From the NCBI RefSeq assembly GCF_019857185.1, contig NZ_JAHWXP010000002.1, positions 682,001 to 746,000 on the forward strand: a stretch of DNA of 64,000 nt. Direction: 5' to 3'. The notes under the pieces were generated by a model. It did no database searches, was not told the origin of the DNA, and worked only from the letters and a program-made list of their open reading frames with translations. Each line of letters begins with the position of its first letter. The first letter of the stretch is position 1. This stretch comes from Alteriqipengyuania abyssalis (GTDB taxonomy: Bacteria > Pseudomonadota > Alphaproteobacteria > Sphingomonadales > Sphingomonadaceae). The translations under genes and the position numbers were made by a program. Positions 42,969 to 64,000 of this stretch are shown here, piece after piece.

Positions 42969-44390
42969 TCAGGCGTAAATTCCGCCGTCGGATTTCGGGC
43001 CGGAGCCGGGCTGGCCGGAGCCTGCGCCGGGGGCGGTGTCGCGGCCCGCCTGACGCGCATTGTCGCGCCGGTCGGACTGGCCATCGCCCGCAGCGCCAGA
43101 CTGGCGCGCATCGGCCTGGCCGCCGTGCGTCGTGGTGCCACCCTGCGCGCCCGCCTGCTGCTGGTGTTGCTGGGTCGGGGCCTGCTGTGCCTCCACCGCG
43201 CGGATATGCGGGCGATCCGCGGCGAGCGCCGCGGCGAGCGATCGCTGCGTTTCATTGTCCTGTGCGGAGACCTGCACATCGAGCGTGCGGCCGCTGGTCT
43301 CAAAGGTCAGCGACAGATTGCCGAGTTCCTTATGCGCGAGCGAGACGGTCGCGCTGCCACCGCCCGCACTGTCGCGCGCGGCGGCGATCCGGTCGACCAG
43401 CGCGGCCAGTTCGGGGAAGCCGGGCATGGCGTTGGCGGTGCCGTTCGCCGGGCCCAGCGGTGCGTGCGCTGCGCCCCTCGGCGCGGCACCCGCGACGAGC
43501 GTGGCGGTGCCGGTGGGTGAGGATGTGCCTGCCTGCTGATCATCGGTCGCACCGGCCCGGTCGGCCGCGCGTACGTTGATGTTGAAGCCCTGCTGCGCGC
43601 TGTCCGTATCGGCCTTGCCGGAGGCGGCGGTGGAGGCGAGTTTCGTGGCGAGCCGACCTGCCGCCTCGCCCTTCGCATCGCCGCGCTGCGCGCCGTCGCC
43701 CTTGCTCTCGCCTTTGCCCTCGCCGGGGGCGAATCCGTCCTCTCCCCTGGTGGCCAGCGCCGTCGGATCGAGCGCGGTGGCGATCCCTGCGGCACCCGCT
43801 GTGCGACCTACGGGGGAGGCGCCAGGTGCCTGATCGCCGCCGGGCTGCCCGGTGCCGGTTGCGCCCGCAGGTATCGTCAGCCCGCGCATCGCCAGCAGTG
43901 CGAGCGGTTGTGCCGCGCCGTTGGCCTGCTGCGTCGTCGCCGCGCCGTCCCGTGTCGGCTGTGCCTTTGCAGCGCCGTCGCCTTCTTTGGGCGAAATGGG
44001 CAGGGCAACGGCAATATCGGGCTGCGCATCCGGCAAGGTCTTGCCGGGCGCTGCGGCAATTGCCGTTGCCTTGCCGGTCTCGCTCGGCGTCGCGGTGTCG
44101 ATGTTGGGCGTGCTAGAAGTGGTGGGAATGGCGACCGCTATCGGCAGCCCGCCAGCGTCGCTCGCCAGCGCCTGCGGGTCTGCCCCGTCGGGCAGGACGT
44201 CATCGCCACCACCGCCCTCAACCGACGCATCCGCGCCCTCTGCATCGCTGTCTGTGGCCGCCTTGCCCAGCGCCTCGGCGAAGGCACCGCGGAGCGTCCC
44301 GCCCGGCTCGAGCGGTGGCAGCCCGTCGAGCGGGAAGCCGGGAATGCGGGTCGATTTGGCGATGCCGAGGTCTAGGAATAGCGCTGTCAT
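42969..44390 (-). CDS. fliK: Flagellar hook-length control protein FliK
   Basis: A 473-residue protein of low complexity (Ala, Gly, Thr and Gln rich), as usual for FliK. The C-terminal domain is recognisable: AVSLAHKELGNLSLTFETSGR-like GNLSLTFETSGRTLDVQVSA, followed by a Gln/Gly-rich tail. FliK is a secreted ruler that triggers the FlhB switch. It is located between fliJ and fliL; 30 bases separate its stop from the fliL start. Confidence 0.85.
   Translation of the reverse strand: MTALFLDLGIAKSTRIPGFPLDGLPPLEPGGTLRGAFAEALGKAATDSDAEGADASVEGGGGDDVLPDGADPQALASDAGGLPIAVAIPTTSSTPNIDTATPSETGKATAIAAAPGKTLPDAQPDIAVALPISPKEGDGAAKAQPTRDGAATTQQANGAAQPLALLAMRGLTIPAGATGTGQPGGDQAPGASPVGRTAGAAGIATALDPTALATRGEDGFAPGEGKGESKGDGAQRGDAKGEAAGRLATKLASTAASGKADTDSAQQGFNINVRAADRAGATDDQQAGTSSPTGTATLVAGAAPRGAAHAPLGPANGTANAMPGFPELAALVDRIAAARDSAGGGSATVSLAHKELGNLSLTFETSGRTLDVQVSAQDNETQRSLAAALAADRPHIRAVEAQQAPTQQHQQQAGAQGGTTTHGGQADARQSGAAGDGQSDRRDNARQAGRDTAPGAGSGQPGSGPKSDGGIYA

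Positions 44391-49814: not shown

Positions 49815-49818
<4 letters not shown>
49453..49818 (-). CDS. fliE: Flagellar hook-basal body protein FliE
   Basis: A 121-residue adapter between the MS ring and the rod. Conserved C-terminal helices: FADSLRSALDGVNAAQTRSGD and DIAKVMLARQEAGVAFEATLQVRNKLLSAYQEIMRM. ATG 49818 overlaps the activator gene's stop by four bases, so it is coupled to the regulator that begins the operon. Confidence 0.93.
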
Positions 49819-51101
<1,283 letters not shown>

Positions 51102-51336
51102 GTTGACCCCGTTCAACCCTTATTATGCCCCTTGGCCGAGGCAGGTTTTTGCCGGTGGACGCACAAAATATGGTTACTTTTAGTCGGAGTGTTTTCCTCA
51201 CGGGTGAAAATACCCATACCGTGAATCTTTCCGACCGCAGCCCTTAACTTCCCGGTTTCCCTGCCGGTCTTGGTCCCAGCTGCTGCGAACCGATCCACCC
51301 CGAGGCAGCGATCTTTTTGTCAGGGAGACTTTGGAA

Positions 51337-52225: not shown

Positions 52226-52878
52226 GCTTATGCGCTGCCCCCGCCGCCGCATTCGGGGCGATATCCGGCGCGCGGCGTTCGTGCTGCGGCGCAGCCCCCG
52301 ACACTGACGGGCGATTGGCTACGCGGTGGATACAGGGTGGGGCGCGTGCCCCGGTGCGCTACGCGCCAAGCGCGATGCCGCGCATCAGGGAACTAGGCGG
52401 GGGGAAGATCGCCTGCGCCACGACGCGATCGAGGCGCAGTGTCCTCACCTGCTCCCGATCGGCATGACACCATTGCAGCACCATGGCCTTGCGCGGTGCT
52501 TCGGCTCATCGAGTACGAACCAATTACCTGGCCGCGAGCGGAGTCATGCGCGAAACCTCGCCGACCCGTGCGTGGCTCGACAAGCTTGCGAGTGGGGAGG
52601 GGGCGTGCGCGCCATGGCAAAGCGGATGGGAATGCCCGTGCCACAGCACGGCAGCCCGCTGCCGGTTCTCACGAACGGTGCTGGTGAGAGGGCGCGGACG
52701 AGCTGCGAAGCAAGCTCCTGTTTACCATCCGCATTAGTGACGTTGGTAACATGAAGAGCGATCACCGCCCGCAACGACCTGTCGAACCGGCTCCGGCGCG
52801 CGATCGCGTAAAGCATTGTCTCGCCCGTCTGGCGGTGGTTTCCCTTGCGGGCCTCCGCCGACGGGCGAGCGTAGTGGC
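52226..52878. other. Large intergenic region between fliC and motB
   Basis: No gene could be supported in these 653 bases. Open frames exist on both strands but are short on coding bias and have no recognisable motif. The right half has a GTGACGTTGGTAACATG element, a tandem-like motif reminiscent of repeat DNA. It may be a remnant or a non-coding RNA region; nothing more is visible. Confidence 0.4.
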
Positions 52879-53700
52879 TCAGTTCGCGAGGACGATCGAG
52901 ATCCGGCGGTTGCGCGGATCTGCGGGATCGTCCTTCACCAGCAGCTCAGTATCGGCGACGCCTTCGATCCGGCGGAAGCTGTCGTCGGGAATGCCCTCGT
53001 TCATCAGCGTCTGGCGGGTTGCCTCGGCGCGCCCGGCCGAGAGCGACCAGTTGTTGATCCGGCCCGGGTTCTTCCATTTCAGGCTGTCGGTATGGCCGCG
53101 CACGATGATCTCGCGCTTCTCCGGCTCGATCGCCTGCGCGATCGCGGCGAGCAGCTCGGCAGCGTCGCGGGTCAGCACGGTGGTGCCCAGGTTGAACATC
53201 GAGAAGTCGGCATCGTCGACCAGGTCGATCCGTACGCCTTCGGTGGTGTCGACCATCTTGATCTGGCTCATCAGCTTGGCAAGTCGGGGATCTTTCTCGA
53301 GCCTGTCCTTGGTCCGCGAGGTGATCCTCTCGATCATCCGCGCGGCTTCCTTGGGCCCGCCCATCGCATCGCGCGGCACGGTCAGCCCCTTGTTGCCGGT
53401 CTGCCCCTGCCGGTTGGGATAGTCGTCGACATCGGTTAGCGATGCGCCCGAAAGCAGGCCGTTGGCACCCGCGCCGCTATCCTTGATCTTGACCAGCGTG
53501 GGGGTGAAATAGTCGGCCAGCCCGCGGCGCTGATCCTCGGTGGTTGCGCCCAGCAGCCACATCAGGAGGAAGAACGCCATCATCGCGGTCACGAAGTCCG
53601 CATAGGCGACCTTCCACGCACCGCCATGGTGCCCGCCTTCGACCACCGTCACCTTCTTGACGATGATCGGGGGGAGATTGTCACCCTTGGCGGCGGCCAT
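52879..53700 (-). CDS. motB: Flagellar stator protein MotB
   Basis: A 273-residue stator subunit. One membrane helix follows a short basic N-terminus; the proton-carrying Asp35 lies in YADFVTAMMAFFLLMWLLG. The periplasmic OmpA-like peptidoglycan-binding domain includes EIIVRGHTDSLKWKNPGRIN and SAGRAEATRQTLMNEGIP. It is the last gene of the flg-mot operon, one base after the motA stop. Confidence 0.95.
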   Translation of the reverse strand: MAAAKGDNLPPIIVKKVTVVEGGHHGGAWKVAYADFVTAMMAFFLLMWLLGATTEDQRRGLADYFTPTLVKIKDSGAGANGLLSGASLTDVDDYPNRQGQTGNKGLTVPRDAMGGPKEAARMIERITSRTKDRLEKDPRLAKLMSQIKMVDTTEGVRIDLVDDADFSMFNLGTTVLTRDAAELLAAIAQAIEPEKREIIVRGHTDSLKWKNPGRINNWSLSAGRAEATRQTLMNEGIPDDSFRRIEGVADTELLVKDDPADPRNRRISIVLAN

Positions 53701-53701
53701 C

Positions 53702-54565
53702 TCAGCGACCCCGCAGCGCGTCGAGCAGTTCGGTCAGGCCCGGGCGCACCGTGTGGCCGAGGCTGGAACGCGCGCTTTCCACCACCAGCGGCTGCGGGTG
53801 GCCGTAGAGCGATGCGATGATCACCTGCTTGACCGCATGGAAGATCTGCTCGTCCTGCTCGATCACCTGCTTGAGCCGGGTGGCGAGCGGGCCGACCATG
53901 CCATAGGCGAGCAGCACGCCCAAAAAGGTGCCGACCAGCGCCGAACCGATCATCTCGCCCAGGATTTCCGGCGGCTTGTCGATCGAGCTCATGGTCTTCA
54001 CCACCCCCAGCACGGCGGCGACGATGCCCAATGCGGGCAGCGCATCGGCGAGCGTCTGGAGCGCGTGCTGCGGCTCGTGCAGCTCGTGGAAATGGGTCTT
54101 CATCGCATTGTCCATCACCTCTTCCACCGCATGGGTTTCGAGCGTGCCGGACGAGACCACCAGCAGCGTCAGCGTGTCGCTGATCAGGCTGATCAGCGCG
54201 TGGTTCTTCATCAGGTTGGGGTAGGCGCTGAAGATGGTCGAGTTTTCGGGCTCGTTCACATGGCTTTCCAGCGCCACCGGGCCATCTGTCTTGAGCACCT
54301 TCATCAGCTGGGTGGTCAGCGCGATCGCGTCGATGTGGTCCTGCTTGTCATGCTGCGGGCCCTTGAAGATCTTCATGAACGCGCCGCCGATCGCCTTCAG
54401 GTGGGCGAGCGAGTTGCCCGCGATGGTCGCGCCGACCGCGGCGCCCCCGATGATCATCATCTCATAGGGCAGCGCGTGCAGCACCGGGCCCATCGCCCCG
54501 CCGCTGATGACGAAGCCGCCGAAGACCAGGACCAGCAGAATGACGATGCCAATAATCGCGTACAT
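53702..54565 (-). CDS. motA: Flagellar stator protein MotA
   Basis: A 287-residue protein with four membrane helices. The cytoplasmic loop has charged residues for FliG contact. Typical segments are MYAIIGIVILLVLVFGGFVI, PALGIVAAVLGVVKTMSSID, and GSALVGTFLGVLLAYGMVGPLA. It forms a pentamer around the MotB dimer and conducts protons. It begins 27 bases after flgL, so it appears to be transcribed with the flg operon. Confidence 0.95.
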   Translation of the reverse strand: MYAIIGIVILLVLVFGGFVISGGAMGPVLHALPYEMMIIGGAAVGATIAGNSLAHLKAIGGAFMKIFKGPQHDKQDHIDAIALTTQLMKVLKTDGPVALESHVNEPENSTIFSAYPNLMKNHALISLISDTLTLLVVSSGTLETHAVEEVMDNAMKTHFHELHEPQHALQTLADALPALGIVAAVLGVVKTMSSIDKPPEILGEMIGSALVGTFLGVLLAYGMVGPLATRLKQVIEQDEQIFHAVKQVIIASLYGHPQPLVVESARSSLGHTVRPGLTELLDALRGR

Positions 54566-61677: not shown

Positions 61678-62096
61678 TTCATCCTCATCGTTTCCAGCAT
61701 CAGCTGCTTGGCGGTGGACATGGCTTCGACCATGTTGCTGTACTGGCGCGAGGCTTCGAGCATCTCGATCATCTCGGCGTTCTCATCGACCGGCGCTTCC
61801 CACACATCGCCGTTCTCGTCGGCGAGCGGGTGGCCCGGATCGTGGCGACGCACCGGCGCGGTGTCGGAGCGTACGACGCGGTCGACGCGGACCGAGCTGA
61901 GCCCGCTCTGCTTGTCGAGTTCCTCGGCAAAGACCGTGCGGATCGGGCGGTAGGCTTCGTCCGCAGAGCCCGCGACGCTGCCCGCATTGGCGAGGTTGGA
62001 CGCGGCAGCGTTCATCCGGACCATCTGCGCGGACATCGCGCGGTAGCCCATCTGGAACATGCTCATCGGCGCGTTGGTGTTTCCCGGCATGGTCAT
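61674..62096 (-). CDS. flgC: Rod protein FlgC
   Basis: A 140-residue proximal rod protein: MFQMGYRAMSAQMVRMNAAASNLANAGSVAG, then VDENAEMIEMLEASRQYSNMVEAMSTAKQLMLETMRM. ATG 62096 overlaps the flgB stop in ATGA, which fixes the start. Confidence 0.94.
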   Translation of the reverse strand: MTMPGNTNAPMSMFQMGYRAMSAQMVRMNAAASNLANAGSVAGSADEAYRPIRTVFAEELDKQSGLSSVRVDRVVRSDTAPVRRHDPGHPLADENGDVWEAPVDENAEMIEMLEASRQYSNMVEAMSTAKQLMLETMRMK

Positions 62097-62440
62097 TCGC
62101 CCCTGATCGCGCGGGTCAGCGTTTCGACGCGACCCTTCAGGAAACCGAGCGTGGCGGTGTAGGCGACCGCGTTCTCCGCGAAGGCGGCCTGTTCGGTCCC
62201 CATCTCGACGGTGTTGCCGTCGAGGCTGGCCATGGTGGGAATGCGATAGACGGTGGCGCGCTGGGCGGCGCTTTCGCTTTCGCTGCCCGCCAGGCGTGCC
62301 TGCAGCGCGGCACCAAAATCGATGTCGCGCGCCTTGTACCCGGGGGTGCCGGCATTGGCGATGTTGGAGCCGAGCACGGCCATGCGTTGCGCACGGACTT
62401 CCAGCGCTGCTCCATGGATGCCGAAAAGGCCCTCGTTCAT
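62093..62440 (-). CDS. flgB: Rod protein FlgB
   Basis: A 115-residue proximal rod protein (FGIHGAALEVRAQRMAVLGSNIANAGTPGYKARDIDFGAALQ; C-terminal NAVAYTATLGFLKGRVETL). ATG 62440 follows GTGGAG at nine bases; a GTG five codons upstream was rejected. It is the first gene of the flg operon, behind the sigma-54 promoter. Confidence 0.93.
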   Translation of the reverse strand: MNEGLFGIHGAALEVRAQRMAVLGSNIANAGTPGYKARDIDFGAALQARLAGSESESAAQRATVYRIPTMASLDGNTVEMGTEQAAFAENAVAYTATLGFLKGRVETLTRAIRGE

Positions 62441-62478: not shown

Positions 62479-62494
62479 AGCAAGGGGCGTGCCA
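62479..62494 (-). promoter_or_regulatory. Sigma-54 (RpoN) promoter of the flgB operon
   Basis: On the minus strand TGGCACGCCCCTTGCT, an exact match to the TGGCACG-N4-TTGCW consensus, with GG (-24) at 62492-62493 and GC (-12) at 62480-62481, ten bases between. It lies 38 bases upstream of the flgB ATG. The activator gene at 49815-51101 fits. Confidence 0.92.
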
Positions 62495-62622
62495 ACTTGT
62501 GCGAAAGGCGCAGAAACGCGAGGCTTGCCGGGTAGGGCGGCAAGCGATTGCCGGTCGGCGGCAAAAATCGGGCGCTCAACCCTGAAACCGCGCGAAACCC
62601 TGCCGTTCTTGTTGCCGTGAAC

Positions 62623-63303
62623 ATGATTGCGACATTTCTCGACCACTGGTTCGACCCCGCCTCGCTGGGAATCGTGCTGGGCGGCACTGTGCTGGCGACG
62701 GTGCTGCGCTGCGGGCTGGCCGAGACGCGGCTGGCACTGGCGAAGATCGCCGCGCTTGCCGCGCGACCCTTCGATCCCGACCGCGCCCGCGCGCAGATGG
62801 CGCGGCAGATCCGCGACATTGCGAAAGAGGGCTTCGTGCGGGCGGAGCCGGTCCGGTTCGGCGATGGCGAGTTCGACCATCTGGCCGACGTGCTGATCAG
62901 CCGCCGCTCGATCGACGCGCTGCATTGCGAGCATCAGGAGCAGACGCGCGCCCGCGTCGAGGCGGCGCAAACCGCGGTGCATGTGCTGGGCCAGGCGGCG
63001 GAGCTGGCGCCCGTGCTGGGCCTCGCGGGCACGCTGGTTGCGCTGGGCACGATGACGCCGGATGGGACCGCTGGCGGGATGACCGGCGCGATCGCGATGG
63101 CGGTGGTCACTACGCTCTACGGCATTGCCGCCGCGAACTTCCTGTTCAGCCCGCTTGCCGCCGCGATCGAGCGCCGCTCCGCGCGGGAGGAACGCGACCG
63201 TCAGGCGGTGCTCGACTGGCTCGAAAACGGGGTTCGCGCGGCGGCCCCGCGACCGGTCGCCGATCCATCCGCCGGGCGGCGCATCTTGCGGGAAGTGGTG
63301 TGA
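62623..63303 (+). CDS. MotA/TolQ/ExbB-like proton-channel protein
   Basis: A 226-residue protein with about three to four membrane segments: TFLDHWFDPASLGIVLGGTVLATVL, ELAPVLGLAGTLVALGTM and AIAMAVVTTLYGIAAANFLFSPLAAAI. The segments APVLGLAGT and TTLYGIAAAN are the pattern of MotA/TolQ/ExbB channel subunits. The true motA is elsewhere in the window. ATG 62623 (GTG 62617 possible). Its stop overlaps the next gene's GTG start (GTGTGA), so the two are a pair. It lies between flgB and flgA. Confidence 0.82.
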   Translation: MIATFLDHWFDPASLGIVLGGTVLATVLRCGLAETRLALAKIAALAARPFDPDRARAQMARQIRDIAKEGFVRAEPVRFGDGEFDHLADVLISRRSIDALHCEHQEQTRARVEAAQTAVHVLGQAAELAPVLGLAGTLVALGTMTPDGTAGGMTGAIAMAVVTTLYGIAAANFLFSPLAAAIERRSAREERDRQAVLDWLENGVRAAAPRPVADPSAGRRILREVV

Positions 63304-63734
63304 GCATTCGCGGTCTCACCGGCTGGCAGACCTCGCTGGCGGATCTCTCGCTGATCCTGTTCGCGGTGGTCGCCGCGTCCTATCGCGGGGACCCGGCAGA
63401 GGAGGCTGTGCCGAGGCCCGAGGAGGTCGAGCAGGCGCTCGACGTCGCGCTCGGTCAGCCGATGGCGGTGTTCCGACCGGGTGGCGATGCCGATCTGACC
63501 CGCTGGCTCTCCGCGCAAGAGCTGGACGAGGGCGCGCTCGCGACGGTGATCGTGCGCCACCGGCCCGGCAGTGCGGCGCGTGGGGCGAGCGAGGCCGCGC
63601 GCCTCGCGGATGAGATCGAGCGGGCGGGCCATCATGCGCGGCTGGTGGTCGAAACCTCCGCTGCGCCGGAAACGCTGGTGACGATCGCCCACGACCGGCC
63701 TGATTATGGCACGCAAATTGCAGATACGCGGTGA
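63300..63734 (+). CDS. Small single-TM partner of the MotA/TolQ-like protein (ExbD/MotB-like N-terminus)
   Basis: A 144-residue protein starting with GTG that overlaps the preceding stop by four bases. The N-terminal membrane helix carries one acidic residue (WQTSLADLSLILFAVVAAS, Asp15), the mark of MotB/ExbD/TolR subunits. The rest (about 45-140) is a small periplasmic domain with VIVRHRPGSAARGASEAARL and LVTIAHDRP, a weak resemblance to half of an OmpA-like fold, but no recognisable peptidoglycan-binding motif. Family unrecognised. It would pair with the channel protein upstream to use a proton gradient. The pair is absent from standard flagellar gene lists. Confidence 0.72.
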   Translation: MSIRGLTGWQTSLADLSLILFAVVAASYRGDPAEEAVPRPEEVEQALDVALGQPMAVFRPGGDADLTRWLSAQELDEGALATVIVRHRPGSAARGASEAARLADEIERAGHHARLVVETSAAPETLVTIAHDRPDYGTQIADTR

Positions 63735-63788: not shown

Positions 63789-64000
63789 ATGCCCAAGCTT
63801 TCCCCCCTGTTTGCTGGCGGCCTGCTGGCCGCAATCGCTGCCGCATCCCCGGCCATCGCCAGCGGGCCGATGGACCCGGCGGCGATCGACCGTGCGGTGA
63901 TGGAATTCACCGGCGCCGGGATCGGCCAGCCGGGCGGCGCGCGCCTGCCCGTCGATCGGCGGATGCGTCTGAATGCCTGTGGCACGCCGCTGCAGCTCGA
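63789..64000 (+). CDS. flgA: P-ring assembly chaperone FlgA, N-terminal fragment
   Basis: The first 70 codons are inside the window. A signal peptide (LSPLFAGGLLAAIAAASPAIAS) is followed by MDPAAIDRAVMEFTGAGIGQ and VDRRMRLNACGTPLQL, the pattern at the start of the FlgA SAF domain. FlgA helps P-ring (FlgI) assembly in the periplasm. The C-terminal part is outside the window. Confidence 0.85.
   Translation, partial: MPKLSPLFAGGLLAAIAAASPAIASGPMDPAAIDRAVMEFTGAGIGQPGGARLPVDRRMRLNACGTPLQL

Follow-up and report, generated by a model that had tools for sequence, protein, structure and literature searches.

TolQR and ExbBD combine a three-helix channel (A) subunit with a small partner (B) subunit that has no OmpA domain. 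SiiAB of Salmonella SPI-4 is a MotAB-like pair whose output is other than swimming, and which serves type I secretion. The stators of the flagellum (FIT) have in common a membrane domain of four helices, a torque interface with four or more helices, a plug with a linker, and an OmpA domain, and PomAB, the sodium-driven stator of Vibrio, falls in this flagellar ion transporter clade, TGI4 (PMC12505986). PomA is described as having a sodium site with three threonines, a sodium path lined in part by the end of the first transmembrane helix (TM1), and charges at R88, D114 and E96 that are called indispensable for motility (PMC10374538).

Here we compare with these systems a two-gene locus in a stretch of 64,000 nucleotides from Alteriqipengyuania abyssalis, which is called the window below. 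The pair lies inside a flagellar cluster, and the features needed for the comparison are as follows:

62623..63303, plus strand: channel (A) subunit gene, ATG at 62623, 226 aa, stop at 63301-63303; MotA/PomA family without the first transmembrane helix
63300..63734, plus strand: partner (B) subunit gene, GTG at 63300, 144 aa, stop at 63732-63734; a reduced relative of MotB/PomB, as judged through its kin
62093..62440, minus strand: flgB, divergent neighbour upstream of the pair
63789..64000, plus strand: start of flgA, which runs beyond the window end (ChapFlgA PF13144, E 1.1e-8)
53702..54565, minus strand: the true motA of the same cluster, for comparison (TIGR03818, 330.7 bits against a cut-off of 303.8)
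52879..53700, minus strand: the true motB of the same cluster, for comparison (MotB_plug and OmpA matches)

The first-pass annotation of this DNA had reported the pair with these coordinates, with products of 226 and 144 residues and with ORFs sharing four bases (GTGA), and translation confirms both reading frames. It had also placed the pair correctly in its surroundings, with flgB divergent, flgA downstream, and a separate true motA and motB at 52879-54565. Past the window end, the strand of flgA continues with flgM, a FlgN-like gene (25.8 bits, under the Pfam cut-off of 30.5), an SLT transglycosylase gene, flhA and a sigma-70-family gene that is fliA by position. The pair stands far beyond chance: the channel protein matches the Pfam family MotA_ExbB (PF01618) at E 2.7e-12, and 31 of 32 loci read for the close subgroup, to which the window pair belongs, preserve the four-base overlap. 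A more divergent subgroup of relatives keeps the overlap in 14 of 19 loci. The same genome contains a second, different flagellar cluster on contig C3 (~570-606 kb; L142, L145), with matches to flgI, motA and motB; the pair was not matched there.

The channel protein is a relative of MotA and PomA by sequence and by fold. PomA is its top NCBIfam model, although at 62.7 bits it scores far under the cut-off of 341, and also its top sequence in the PDB, with an E-value of 1.8e-12 for the protein alone and 1.7e-22 with the family profile. In the AF2 monomer model (pLDDT 90, pTM 0.81), three short helices separate the first membrane helix from the second, and one further helix is C-terminal. When this model was submitted to Foldseek, all 23 PDB chains at E<=0.001 are MotA or PomA flagellar stators, and TolQ and ExbB appear only from E 0.025 on. 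The likeness to TolQ/ExbB suggested earlier therefore does not hold, PomA being the best match in NCBIfam, among PDB sequences and in the fold search; kinship with TolQ/ExbB is rejected on sequence and fold, both of which are nearer to MotA/PomA. The number of membrane helices in the channel protein, three, is as in TolQ/ExbB. Two more MotA_ExbB genes are found elsewhere in the source genome, and both look like Tol/Exb A subunits. At one relative's locus (L025, genome G079) the channel protein has only 197 aa and lacks, in frame, the segment that leads from the cytoplasmic FGD motif to the following membrane helix.

The helix missing from the channel protein is the first one of PomA. The protein begins at TM2, with residue 9 aligned to PomA 27-29, and has no match to MotA_N in Pfam; the square four-helix transmembrane domain of flagellar stators is thus absent from the pair. 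An overlooked upstream start carrying TM1 was considered for the window gene and rejected, as no hydrophobic stretch lies upstream. To extend the comparison to other loci, the frame upstream of TM2 was scored for a hydrophobic stretch of 17 residues with a mean >1.5. The controls were 28 PomA-type genes, the best of the matches in 63 genomes outside the family, from other families of the class. The stretch is present in 27 of them; for the remaining gene (L074) the anchor had been set wrongly, and inspection by eye shows the helix. In the close subgroup the stretch occurs in one of 53 loci (L021, borderline at 1.68 and ahead of the likely start), with one locus that ends at a contig edge (L016) outside this judgement. 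It occurs in none of the 20 divergent loci, three of which are too short upstream to score. Among 34 further copies, the stretch is found in three (G007, G052 and G056), precisely those located away from flgI. These genes (L162, L174 and L167, respectively) are full-length PomA-type stators with TM1, and add a third type of MotA-family gene to a few of the family's genomes. In PomA the end of TM1 contributes to the lining of the sodium path, so ion flow through a channel without this helix is uncertain.

Residues of the pore were compared in an alignment of 58 rows, comprising 11 of the 33 close sequences, 19 of the 20 divergent ones and the 28 PomA-type controls. P130, G133, G136, T137, Y166, G167 and P177 are identical in all 58 rows. 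T164 is threonine in 57 rows and T163 in 52, the latter being replaced by alanine in five of the 19 divergent rows and by serine in one of the 11 close rows. In the alignment with the PomA chain, T137, T163 and T164 of the window protein correspond to PomA T158, T185 and T186. Since the three sodium-site threonines of PomA are kept in the window protein, the earlier description of the pair as proton-driven is doubtful, and sodium may perhaps be the driving ion. The same alignment pairs A67, E75 and S93 with PomA R88, E96 and D114. By these alignment columns, two of the three PomA coupling charges (R88 and D114) are gone from the window protein and the E96 equivalent, E75, is kept. The R88 column holds arginine in 27 and lysine in one of the 28 PomA-type rows, and arginine in 3 of 11 close and 3 of 19 divergent rows. 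Aspartate fills the D114 column in 27 of 28 PomA-type, none of 11 close and 14 of 19 divergent rows; the E96 column has glutamate in 10 of 28 PomA-type and 7 of 11 close rows, and aspartate or glutamate in 19 of 19 divergent rows. As far as sequence can tell, the divergent subgroup retains more of the torque interface than the subgroup of the window.

The partner protein is modelled by AF2 with fair confidence (pLDDT 75) as a single membrane helix, residues 8-28, and a small periplasmic domain. The helix starts with W-x4-A-D, as it does in the cluster's own MotB. The partner counts cover 32 close loci and 19 of the 20 divergent ones, and leave aside the 34 further copies. Two remarks of the first-pass annotation on this protein, a membrane Asp15 and no clear peptidoglycan-binding domain, extend to its relatives. 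Asp15 lies inside the sole predicted transmembrane helix and is invariant in the 33 aligned partners of the close subgroup, and a transmembrane aspartate is also present in 19 of 19 divergent partners. Searches of the window-type partners for OmpA, MotB_plug and ExbD domains gave 0 of 33 for each, so that neither the plug with its linker nor the OmpA-type wall-binding domain of flagellar stators is recognisable in this subgroup. The window partner alone has no match of note in Pfam or NCBIfam, and the window-type profile finds no MotB or other stator in the PDB at E<=5. Foldseek with the partner model gives no PDB hit at E<=0.001; the best is CetZ at E 5.5e-3, followed by SiiA at 0.014. Designed repeat proteins were returned by the PDB sequence search with the partner alone (E 3.3e-5), with no significant stretch, and were taken as chance matches.

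The kin of the partner are more informative. All 19 divergent-subgroup partners match OmpA at E<=1 (best 1.2e-6) and 17 of 19 match MotB_plug at E<=1 (best 8.5e-8), most of these matches being weak. ExbD is matched by one of the 19, at E 0.31, against OmpA in all 19, and an ExbD/TolR reading of the partner's periplasmic domain was rejected on this comparison. The divergent-partner profile matches PomB in the PDB (E 4.8e-14) and the window's MotB across the OmpA part (probability 86, E 4.6e-6), and hhalign connects the window-type with the divergent partners (probability 95, E 3.7e-8). Since the divergent partners match MotB/OmpA and the window-type partners match them in turn, the window partner can be placed through its kin as a relative of MotB/PomB, with a periplasmic part that is recognisable only in the divergent subgroup.

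We surveyed 199 genomes of the family, of which 133 have a detected flgI. The channel profile matches in 88 of the 199; three of these are full-length PomA-type genes, leaving 85 TM1-less copies. As many as 83 of the 85 share a contig with flgI, at a distance of 4348-5649 bases, and all 83 are on the strand opposite to it; the remaining two (G143 and G152) lie on contigs of only 5.5 and 8 kb, where flgI has no match. This linkage agrees with the earlier suggestion that the pair is a further stator-like unit belonging to the flagellar cluster. The channel gene is divergent from flgB in all 20 regions read for the divergent subgroup, and a FlgA-like gene lies downstream of the channel gene or pair in 57 of 69 loci, as found with a profile that had been iterated on the very loci counted. 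A MotA with MotA_N is also present in 83 of the 85 TM1-less genomes, the exceptions being G036 and G143. In G036 (L141), the matches to the two genes of the pair extend over most of each gene. This genome was rejected as a case of the pair serving as sole stator: with flgB and flgF broken and no match to MotA_N in the genome, the cluster looks to be decaying.

Among the flgI-bearing genomes, 84 of 133 carry the TM1-less form. At most 49 of the 133 have no copy, an upper bound because the search scored no more than 14 candidates per genome; this indicates that flagella can manage without the pair. The flgI region was read in 20 copy-less genomes, including one region that ends at a contig edge (L107): there is no MotA-like gene in 19, and the other (L106) has a weaker MotA-like match that does not adjoin a flgB. 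In 14 of the 20 pair-less regions flgB is present, with flgA directly adjoining in 11, ~1.5 kb off in two and unfound in one. With flgA beside flgB where the pair is absent, the pair behaves as a cassette at the flgB/flgA junction. The window-type partner, searched with the single sequence, is found in 40 of the 199 family genomes, one of which (G163) has no channel match. Samples of the order (246 genomes) and of the class (385 genomes) contain 40 and 4 genomes, respectively, that match the partner profile, and each of these belongs to the same family. Close relatives of the pair include four Citromicrobium records and one Erythrobacter record.

We read the pair as a PomAB-family, flagellum-dedicated, ion-driven unit with an output other than standard torque, and assign to this reading a probability of about 0.58. 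The A subunit is nearer to MotA/PomA than to TolQ/ExbB, and the transmembrane aspartate of the B subunit and the pore prolines of the A subunit, P130 and P177, are in place. As pore and kinship are kept, and the four-helix domain, the plug with linker and the wall-binding domain are not found in the window's subgroup, the pair is classed as a derived variant and not as a standard stator. The loss of TM1 and of two of the three FliG-coupling charges, together with the unrecognisable plug and OmpA anchor, suggests that it is most likely no standard torque unit. Such a unit would be a derived paralogue of a PomAB-type flagellar stator. By homology, five channel subunits would surround two partner subunits, and the channel ring would turn as ions, perhaps sodium, pass Asp15 of the partner. 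Linkage ties the pair to the flagellum; the rotation or ion flow could be passed on to something else at the base of the organelle, be it the periphery of the motor, the true stators, or the zone around rod and P-ring. With somewhat less than an even chance, the pair is an ion-driven flagellar rotary unit that does not generate torque; it would have shed TM1, part of the rotor face and, in one subgroup, the anchor and plug, kept an intact ion channel, and turned its rotation, perhaps powered by sodium, to another job at the flagellar base. Such a job might be to open the envelope for the rod and P-ring, to hold a periplasmic ring in a clamp, or to gate the true stators. Stator tuning and P-ring construction, roles put forward in the first-pass annotation, may be counted among the candidates.

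Alternatively, the motor could use two ordinary stators, with the pair as the second one in the manner of MotCD or MotPS; the pair would then join the ring, drive FliG with altered interface charges and draw its wall anchor from another protein. The flagellar linkage and the MotA/PomA homology of the channel agree with this explanation, as do the retained E96 equivalent, the D114 equivalent kept in 14 of 19 divergent members, and the OmpA and plug signals of the divergent partners. Sodium-site threonines beside a MotA that does not have them would result in a mixed-ion motor. We nevertheless regard an ordinary second stator as unlikely: TM1 is absent, the window protein has neither the R88 nor the D114 equivalent, and no plug or OmpA domain is recognisable in any of the 33 window-type partners.

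Rates of evolution bear on whether the pair is functional at all. Between the window and three relatives, dN/dS is 0.17-0.29 for the channel gene, 0.30-0.38 for the partner gene and 0.04-0.11 for flgB; the pair is under constraint, yet evolves faster than this rod gene. Graded loss of parts and the faster evolution would be expected of a stator relic in decay that has survived with little function left. The flgI genomes without a detected copy (at most 49 of 133) also fit such a relic, as does genome G019 (L130), where the channel gene has an eroded pore motif, a FlgA-like frame follows directly, and a partner gene was looked for at the locus and not found. However, erosion of the pore where the partner is gone is also what would be expected, in this one case, if both proteins work only together. 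No internal stop is present among the family channel matches listed, 83 copies are at the same place, the pore is nearly invariant and the aspartate invariant, and dN/dS stays within 0.17-0.38. A relic is, on balance, quite improbable. In a tree without outgroups, the TM1-less and PomA-type rows are split with support of 98/87, and the close and divergent subgroups receive 100/100 and 75/58. When the tree is rooted with two Tol/Exb-like and two MotA rows, a single clade for both subgroups is not rejected (p-AU 0.47), and the deep order is without resolution.

A Tol/Exb-like envelope energiser that lies in the flagellar cluster by chance only is scarcely credible: three membrane helices, a small periplasmic partner domain and the Foldseek matches to TolQ/ExbB from E 0.025 on speak for it, but sequence and fold are nearer to MotA/PomA, the partner's kin match OmpA in 19 of 19 cases and ExbD in one (best E 0.31), 83 genomes have the flgI linkage, the two other MotA_ExbB genes of the genome look like Tol/Exb A subunits, and the Tol/Exb combination of an A subunit closest to TolQ/ExbB with a B subunit carrying an ExbD/TolR domain is not observed.

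The region between flgB and the pair, and the end of the partner gene, contain sequences that may control these genes:

62539..62552, plus strand: palindrome GGCAAGCGATTGCC, candidate activator site in the divergent region between flgB and the pair
62480..62494, minus strand: sigma-54-type promoter sequence TGGCACGCCCCTTGC, for flgB, position kept
63707..63721, plus strand: sigma-54-type promoter sequence TGGCACGCAAATTGC, within the last part of the partner gene, likely serving flgA

The palindrome, GGCAR-N4-YTGCC, is located between flgB and the pair in 70 of 72 channel-gene loci, compared with 1 of 14 pair-less loci and 0.2% of shuffled regions. It occurs four times in the window (62539-62552, 51140-51153, 44032-44045 and 52650-52663), whereas 0.44 occurrences were expected. 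The cluster encodes a sigma-54 activator at 49815-51116, and the palindrome is a candidate site of this protein. In a number of relatives the palindrome is doubled, ~20 bases apart. The sigma-54-type pattern ahead of flgB is found in 70 of 72 loci versus 0.8% of shuffles, and the one near flgA in 42 of 57 loci versus 1.8% of shuffles; a strict sigma-54 motif ahead of the pair itself is present in only 6 of 72 loci. Across the window, the loose pattern occurs at the level of chance (4 found, 4.12 expected), so the promoter claim rests on the conserved position. At the pair-less loci (L101-L119) flgB keeps the promoter in 13 of 14 cases but the palindrome in only one, which suggests that the activator site there may have moved or changed.

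The preferred reading of the pair, as a PomAB-family unit with another output, draws attention to a widespread natural series within one bacterial family. TM1 is lost throughout this series, and the plug, the anchor and the rotor charges are lost to differing degrees; the ion pore, by contrast, is nearly invariant, and the gene holds its position at the flgB/flgA junction. Such natural variants offer a way to test which parts of a stator ion-driven rotation requires and which serve torque only. They also point to an unexamined, possibly powered, component of these flagella.

The first-pass annotation had not recognised the pair as a described system, and we found no description of it in the searched, largely open-access literature on stators, stator paralogues and sphingomonad flagella. 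Campylobacter FcpMNO were considered as TolQR-like flagellar parts and dismissed, as they are PilMNO homologues (PMC11870540). Phaeobacter inhibens has an orphan second motA (PMC12363192), which appears to be a different case from the window pair.

Of the described systems, PomAB is the best match of the window A subunit by sequence and fold, and has the pore motifs and the three sodium-site threonines in common with it; the window pair differs from PomAB in having no TM1, no R88 or D114 equivalents, and no recognisable plug or OmpA domain. With the MotAB of its own cluster the pair shares the order of the A gene before the B gene, the location in the flagellar cluster, PF01618 and the W-x4-A-D start of the B helix. 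That MotA, however, is full, with MotA_N, and its MotB has a plug and an OmpA domain; in the alignment this MotA has alanine and glycine at two of the three sodium-site positions, unlike the window channel. TolQR and ExbBD resemble the pair in their three-helix A subunit and small B subunit without an OmpA domain, but are farther in sequence and fold, and the window pair is linked to flgI. Like SiiAB, the window pair is MotAB-like and probably has an output other than swimming, and the SiiA periplasmic domain is a weak fold match of the window partner (E 0.014); SiiAB goes with type I secretion, whereas the window pair goes with the flagellum.
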